Assembly: GCA_028714255.1 (NCBI GenBank)
Contig: JAQTMR010000001.1
Location: 186,001-250,000 of the forward strand
Source: Phycisphaerae bacterium
GTDB lineage: Bacteria > Planctomycetota > Phycisphaerae > Sedimentisphaerales > Anaerobacaceae
Reading direction: 5' to 3'
DNA length: 64,000 bases
Below, piece after piece: positions 47,976 through 49,422 of the stretch (position 1 is its first letter; each line of letters starts with the position of its first letter). Both the position numbers and the translations under genes were made by a program. The notes under the pieces are model-generated. The model saw only the letters and a list, made by a program, of their open reading frames with translations. It did not search any database and was not told the origin of the DNA.

Positions 47976-48003
47976 CAAAAAGGCCTGCATAACAGGCCTT
48001 TTA
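47976..48003 (-). terminator. Terminator of the 48-kb RNA gene
   Basis: On the minus strand AAAAGGCCTG and CAGGCCTTTTT form a ten-base-pair stem around TTATG. The T-run is also present on the other strand as TTTT, so it can act in both directions. Confidence 0.75.
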
Positions 48004-48205
48004 GTGCAAGGCTTCACTCCGCTGGTGCCGTAAGAAAACTTTTGAAGAAAACCCATTATGTCCACGTGGGTAATCGTTGCTTGCGTCCGAAAGTCCTATC
48101 GAGTAGGCATTTTTCGAGCCGTCAAGACCTGACTTCCCTGAGTAACTGGGTATCGGTTTTTTCAAAATCATATTTTCTACACGCACACCGCAGGGGTCAG
48201 CCTGC
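48004..48205 (-). ncRNA. Probable rod-shaped non-coding RNA (6S-like layout)
   Basis: A sigma-70 promoter upstream and an intrinsic terminator downstream bound about 200 bases on the minus strand. The two ends can pair for most of their length: GCAGGCT with AGCCTTGC, GTGCGTG with the GGCAC region, AGAAAA with TTTTCT, TTTTGAA with TTCAAAA and AAAACC with GGTTTT, making a long interrupted rod with a branched head (GTCAGGTCTTGAC and CCCACGTGGACATAATGGG). This resembles the general plan of 6S RNA, which binds RNA polymerase, but I could not match conserved 6S bases. An open frame runs through it from TTG to just before the terminator, so a small mRNA remains an alternative. Confidence 0.5.
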
Positions 48206-48211
48206 AAATAT

Positions 48212-48240
48212 CTTATACTAAATCACGGCCCAAAAGTCAA
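48212..48240 (-). promoter_or_regulatory. Promoter of the 48-kb RNA gene
   Basis: Minus strand TTGACT (48235-48240), a 17-base spacer and TATAAG (48212-48217). This is among the best -35/-10 matches in the window, and transcription should begin near 48205. Confidence 0.7.
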
Positions 48241-48303: not shown

Positions 48304-49422
48304 CTATTTAAGGACATCAATCACCCCGTAAGGGTCGGTCGAAATCACACTGTTTGCGTACAGTTCCATAGCGCCGATATCCGCGGTTGCCTTGAAGATA
48401 CTTCCTCTATCTACGACTCTTATTATATAGGGCAGGTCGTCCCCGGCATCCATAGCAGGCATAGAAATGGTAACGTTAAAGCATGTCACTCCGAGCTTAT
48501 CGATAAAACATCTCAGCACATCAAAAATAACTTTTTTAACCTTATCGCTTTTCGAGGGATTGGACGCAATTATCACGGTCTCTTTTTCCTTTACCGGCGT
48601 AAGGCTGACGAAAACTTTTACGCCGCCCCGGCCATAGCCAAGATTGACCATCTTATGCGCTTCGAATAAATCGTCGAAATATTTTCCGCCCTTTCGTTTT
48701 TTCGCGTATTCCAGAGCAGCTCTTTGCAGCATTTCAATCCCTGCGTAATACCTGCCCCTGGCCATTAAAAGCTGCGCGTGGCCGTGCACCTGTGATGCGC
48801 CCGATTTTTCCAGACAATTCCACAGCAGAAAAGGATATTTGGCCCCCGCATCCAGCCGGTGTACCTTTTCAAACCACTTAAATCCTGTTTCAATATAATC
48901 GGAAAGCTCTTTCAGAGTAAATTTCAGGGGATTATGTTTTCCAAAATATATCATGCCGCTCCAGCCGTCGTATTTTGCAACATTGGCCCCGGTAACACAG
49001 TATTTGCCCTTGATTCTGCCGAATAAATCTTCGGGAGTGTATTTCGCAGGTTCGCAAAAATCGCAATTTCTCATCGACTCGCTGATATGCTCATCGACTC
49101 TCTGCCTTTCCTTTTCAATTTCCCCCCTCATAGAGGGCCTGCTCGCCCTGAGCCAGTTAAACAGAGCGCCATCCCCTGTCCATTTATTGAATGTCCTCAC
49201 CACTTTCTGGGTTTCGATTCTATTAACAACTTCGTCCTCGGTTTCTATAATCTCCCCGCCTTTATCTTTCGTGCCGAAATACTGCCTGACCTTGGCCCTG
49301 AACGAAGGTGGAATCTCTAACCTGCCCTCGACGCTGGAAATCTCGAAAATATCACAGAAGAGTTTCTTGTCCCCCTTTTTCAGTTTGCTTACCCTGCTCT
49401 CCAGCCCGACAATAGAATCCAT
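48304..49422 (-). CDS. GalT/HIT-superfamily nucleotidyltransferase-like protein
   Basis: The 372-residue protein resembles galactose-1-phosphate uridylyltransferases and ATP adenylyltransferases of the HIT superfamily. A CDFC pair (NCDFCEPAKYTPEDLFG) stands where GalT binds zinc, and the active-site motif is ASQVHGHAQLLM (HxHxQ), with LLWNCLEKSGASQVHGH before it. It probably transfers a nucleotidyl group from or to a sugar phosphate, but the substrate is open. The first 100 residues (FDIFEISS-like part, FRAKVRQYFGT) are unlike classical GalT. It lies downstream of pheT on the same strand with a gap of about 105 bases. Confidence 0.75.
   Translation of the reverse strand: MDSIVGLESRVSKLKKGDKKLFCDIFEISSVEGRLEIPPSFRAKVRQYFGTKDKGGEIIETEDEVVNRIETQKVVRTFNKWTGDGALFNWLRASRPSMRGEIEKERQRVDEHISESMRNCDFCEPAKYTPEDLFGRIKGKYCVTGANVAKYDGWSGMIYFGKHNPLKFTLKELSDYIETGFKWFEKVHRLDAGAKYPFLLWNCLEKSGASQVHGHAQLLMARGRYYAGIEMLQRAALEYAKKRKGGKYFDDLFEAHKMVNLGYGRGGVKVFVSLTPVKEKETVIIASNPSKSDKVKKVIFDVLRCFIDKLGVTCFNVTISMPAMDAGDDLPYIIRVVDRGSIFKATADIGAMELYANSVISTDPYGVIDVLK

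Follow-up and report, generated by a model that had tools for sequence, protein, structure and literature searches.

A diverged 6S RNA gene with its own promoter and terminator in a Phycisphaerae planctomycete

6S RNA and the locus under study

The 6S RNAs (SsrS; Rfam family RF00013), of which E. coli ssrS and the 6S-1 RNA of B. subtilis (bsrA) are described representatives, work by promoter mimicry, in that they sequester the housekeeping RNA polymerase, which is then released through the synthesis of a product RNA (PMC8876501). In the E. coli RNA the start site of this product is U44 (PMC8876501). A further RNA of comparable build is Ms1 of the Actinobacteria, which likewise resembles 6S RNA in structure and binds RNA polymerase (PMC9130861). 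It is with these RNAs that the present locus is compared. It lies in a stretch of 64,000 nucleotides, hereafter the window, from a Phycisphaerae bacterium (Sedimentisphaerales; Anaerobacaceae; assembly GCA_028714255.1, contig JAQTMR010000001.1, positions 186,001 to 250,000). We read this locus as the ssrS of a Phycisphaerae/Sedimentisphaerales planctomycete, with its own promoter and terminator, a promoter-mimicking rod and, by homology, holoenzyme binding and product-RNA release, and put the probability of this reading at about 0.96.

Layout and fold of the gene

Read on the minus strand from 48240 to 47978, the locus comprises a sigma-70-type promoter, then a rod-shaped RNA and then an intrinsic terminator; in other words, it is a free-standing RNA gene. 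The promoter is evident by direct reading as a −35 hexamer TTGACT (48235–48240) and a −10 hexamer TATAAG (48212–48217) with a spacer of 17, of which the TTGA and TATA portions are conserved in homologues. Indeed, an upstream promoter site scoring at least 9/12 is found in 50 of 71 homologues, as against 39 of 355 shuffles. A simple promoter scan did not list the TTGACT/TATAAG pair, because the −10 hexamer has no T at position 6. The RNA itself, of some 205 bases (about 48207–48003), is held between this promoter and a terminator at 48002–47978 (AAAAGGCCTGTTATGCAGGCCTTTT), the 11-pair stem of which (GGCCTG...CAGGCC) runs into a T-rich tail, and the stem, AAAGGYCTG/CAGGCCTTTT, is kept throughout the homologues. 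From the positions of promoter and terminator, the whole transcription unit would span about 230 nt (47976–48207, minus strand), its start being set 5–7 bases past the −10 hexamer and its end within the T-rich tail of the terminator. An earlier sequence-only reading had named a TTGACT-17-TATAAG promoter, a strong terminator and an RNA gene standing free between the two, and all three are upheld.

The rod has a minimum free energy of −65.3 kcal/mol (z = −3.07), and none of 200 shuffles is as stable. Its plan of closing stem, central open region or bubble, and apical stem is supported by covariation. In a set of 59 homologues, thinned so that identity does not exceed about 90%, 26 of the 44 predicted pairs show pair-keeping changes on both sides, 95.2% of cells are paired and 218 cells are compensatory, with no measure reached by any of 500 shuffles. 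When the partners are slid by 1–3 columns as a control, pairing falls to 38–46% and compensatory cells to 18–34; since the structure was itself drawn from this alignment, the test leans somewhat in its favour, but the gap between paired and slid columns far exceeds what such circularity alone should be expected to give. The pairing of the 5′ and 3′ halves as an interrupted rod, first noted from the letters of the stretch, is thus borne out both by folding energy and by covariation among homologues.

On the 5′ side of the central bubble, 55 of the 59 homologues carry the motif AACCGAT (48152–48158, minus strand, in the window). The same CCGAT is present in E. coli ssrS, where it ends exactly at nucleotide 44, that is, at the known start site, and therefore the product RNA predicted here begins AUCGGUUUUUUCAA, with the 3′ U of the motif (48152) as its start. 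This 14-mer would correspond to positions 48152–48165 of the plus strand, although its template would be the RNA and not the DNA. The commonest form of the predicted product within the order is AUCGGUUCUUUCAA. The E. coli counterpart would read AUCGGCUCAGGGGA, whereas the planctomycete AUCGGUUUUUUCAA is A/U-rich after AUCGG. A product RNA AUCGGUUUUUUCAA starting from U48152 is, as such, a concrete and testable prediction.

Assignment to RF00013 and rival readings

In a scan of a 401-base stretch against Rfam, run with laxer filters, RF00013 is matched over its full length (model positions 1–187) at 48199–48012 on the minus strand. The match scores 47.5 bits (E 1.3e-8) where the gathering score is 46.4, the margin over the cut-off for the window's copy being only 1.1 bits. 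The matches in five close relatives, which are also full length, score 54–63 bits (best 62.8), and when the window's locus and seven from relatives were scanned jointly, each of the eight was recognised as 6S, and six scored above the cut-off. A whole-genome search returned a single 6S match above threshold, which is the window locus. In a default scan of the whole window at gathering thresholds, tRNA was the only match and 6S was not reported, the gene probably having been missed owing to the fast filters; annotation pipelines that use such filters may overlook many 6S copies in the same manner. No Rfam family other than RF00013 reached its threshold in the 401-base stretch. Weak matches to STnc350, to the rimP leader and to the Thr leader fall over the terminator region and lie far under their thresholds, as does a match to DUF805b, which covers 20 bases within the 6S core on the opposite strand.

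The locus thus combines a score above the gathering threshold, a covarying rod, a product-RNA start site and an independent gene of ~180–200 nt with promoter and terminator, each of which speaks for membership of the 6S family. Although diverged, this RNA of roughly 190 bases is an ordinary 6S RNA and a clear member of the known family. The sequence-only reading had left the choice between a diverged 6S RNA and a new class, and it is the former that stands; a new class is not supported, given that RF00013 is matched at full length above its curated threshold.

The slightness of the window's own score over the cut-off, together with a general rod shape that is common to Ms1 (PMC9130861), could be taken to indicate a 6S-resembling RNA of some other kind, for example one that, like Ms1, binds the core polymerase without sigma. 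Such a reading is very unlikely in view of the scores that RF00013 attains at full length in relatives, the conservation of the product-RNA start motif and the fact that all other Rfam families stay below threshold in the 401-base stretch. It is also conceivable that the element is no separate RNA and acts in cis as a leader of glgP, which lies some 250 bases further on in the same orientation, in a gene order that is conserved. However, a terminator, itself conserved, is interposed between 6S and glgP, and elsewhere in the phylum 6S adjoins other genes, such that we regard a leader as exceedingly improbable. A short protein gene (48207–48001) is suggested by the frame at 48001–48207, which in the window is open for 68 codons (68 aa). 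Its product, however, has no Pfam match, and the frame holds an internal stop in 65 of 71 homologues and a frame-breaking indel in 70 of 71, by which the coding reading is refuted and its probability is practically nil. Conservation of this frame at the protein level is, in other words, the opposite of what the homologues display, in keeping with the earlier remark that the region holds no recognisable protein.

Distribution, neighbours and proposed mechanism

At the DNA level, a homologue of the 6S gene is present in 15 of 21 near genomes, a count that includes the genome of the window, and 74 of 118 genomes from the order carry one. Across 294 planctomycete genomes RF00013 gives 73 over its cut-off and 144 at E ≤ 0.001, both of which are lower bounds, as the window's own copy was missed by the strict filters in the same run. 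A model built from the window's homologues (R1) recovers loci throughout the phylum at coordinates that match the independent RF00013 matches; it did not extend the range, with distant planctomycete copies in 63 of 294 genomes as against 144 of 294 by RF00013. Named records with the strict gene pattern are nearly all MAGs whose titles read Planctomycetota, planctomycete, Phycisphaerae, Phycisphaerales or Sedimentisphaerales, the exceptions being one Gemmatales, one Candidatus Kuenenia and two of ‘uncultured bacterium’. One relative (genome G104, contig C1) has two 6S-like copies (L029/L049, at 1879745 and 2718341), each with glgP beside it; the second is partly N, and the two may possibly be a 6S-1/6S-2 pair or an assembly duplicate.

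The distribution of 6S RNA was reportedly surveyed by Wehner et al. in 2014. For Thermogutta, no 6S RNA was reported (PMC5673643), and the same paper cites from a survey its absence in Pirellula and Rhodopirellula. It is mildly surprising, in this regard, that 6S RNA should be so common in the Planctomycetota when the literature consulted names only absences (Pirellula, Rhodopirellula, Thermogutta). No claim is made that planctomycete 6S RNAs are new to Rfam or to genome annotation; what the gene does is to fill in the global RNA polymerase regulator for a deep and mostly uncultured phylum. We would also suggest, tentatively and at somewhat less than even odds, that the planctomycete 6S RNAs are a subtype of their own, marked by product RNAs rich in A/U and by a long-standing pheT linkage, and that the reported absences reflect limited search sensitivity and not loss.

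The succession pheT-6S-glgP, with all three genes on one strand, is a conserved one across the order: of about 64 loci listed, 43 have glgP downstream and 36 have pheT upstream, many of these loci being truncated and some coming from one record counted twice. Moreover, 6S adjoins pheT in several families outside the window's own (L116, L117, L118, L121, L126, L135, L136 and L141, loci found with RF00013), and therefore the linkage may be old. Between pheT and 6S the window holds a gene of 372 aa (48304–49422, minus strand). Its protein matches no Pfam family, nor does sequence comparison yield a relative in the PDB, so that the earlier name of ‘GalT-like’ is not confirmed, and a scan of genome contigs with the protein gave no match. 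Among 20 relatives the gene occurs in one other genome only (G005, 61% identity), and G001 and G002, which are of the same genus, lack it between pheT and 6S; it has the look of an insertion with a patchy distribution. At two loci of other planctomycete families (L120 and L132), 6S is followed by what by eye appears to be a RarA/MgsA-like ATPase, a neighbour also of Firmicutes 6S-1, and this hints at an old linkage. No zapA was recognised by eye among the translated frames flanking the 6S loci.

The position of AACCGAT at the U44-equivalent site suggests that the working cycle is the known 6S RNA cycle, and by analogy the mechanism is likely to be the known one, in which the housekeeping RNA polymerase is sequestered and is freed by product-RNA synthesis. 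Transcription would begin at the gene's own housekeeping promoter and stop at the intrinsic terminator, as sequence and conservation support, giving a folded rod, backed by covariation, whose central open region would resemble a melted promoter. By homology, when nutrients are low the RNA would tie up the housekeeping sigma–RNA polymerase holoenzyme and block promoters. As a 6S RNA it would also be expected to accumulate in stationary phase. Once NTPs are back, the polymerase would start a short product RNA at U48152 (AUCGGUUUUUUCAA...), the synthesis of which would refold the 6S RNA and release the enzyme.

In overall comparison, the RNA of the window resembles 6S/SsrS in its length and full-length model match, in its succession of closing stem, central bubble and apical stem, in the CCGAT at the product-RNA start and in having its own promoter and terminator. 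It is unlike in sequence, in which the window copy has diverged to near the cut-off, and in its neighbours, which are pheT and glgP where those of E. coli ssrS are zapA and fau. Ms1, by contrast, is a distinct RNA that binds the polymerase core, whereas the RNA of the window matches RF00013 and carries the 6S start-site motif.
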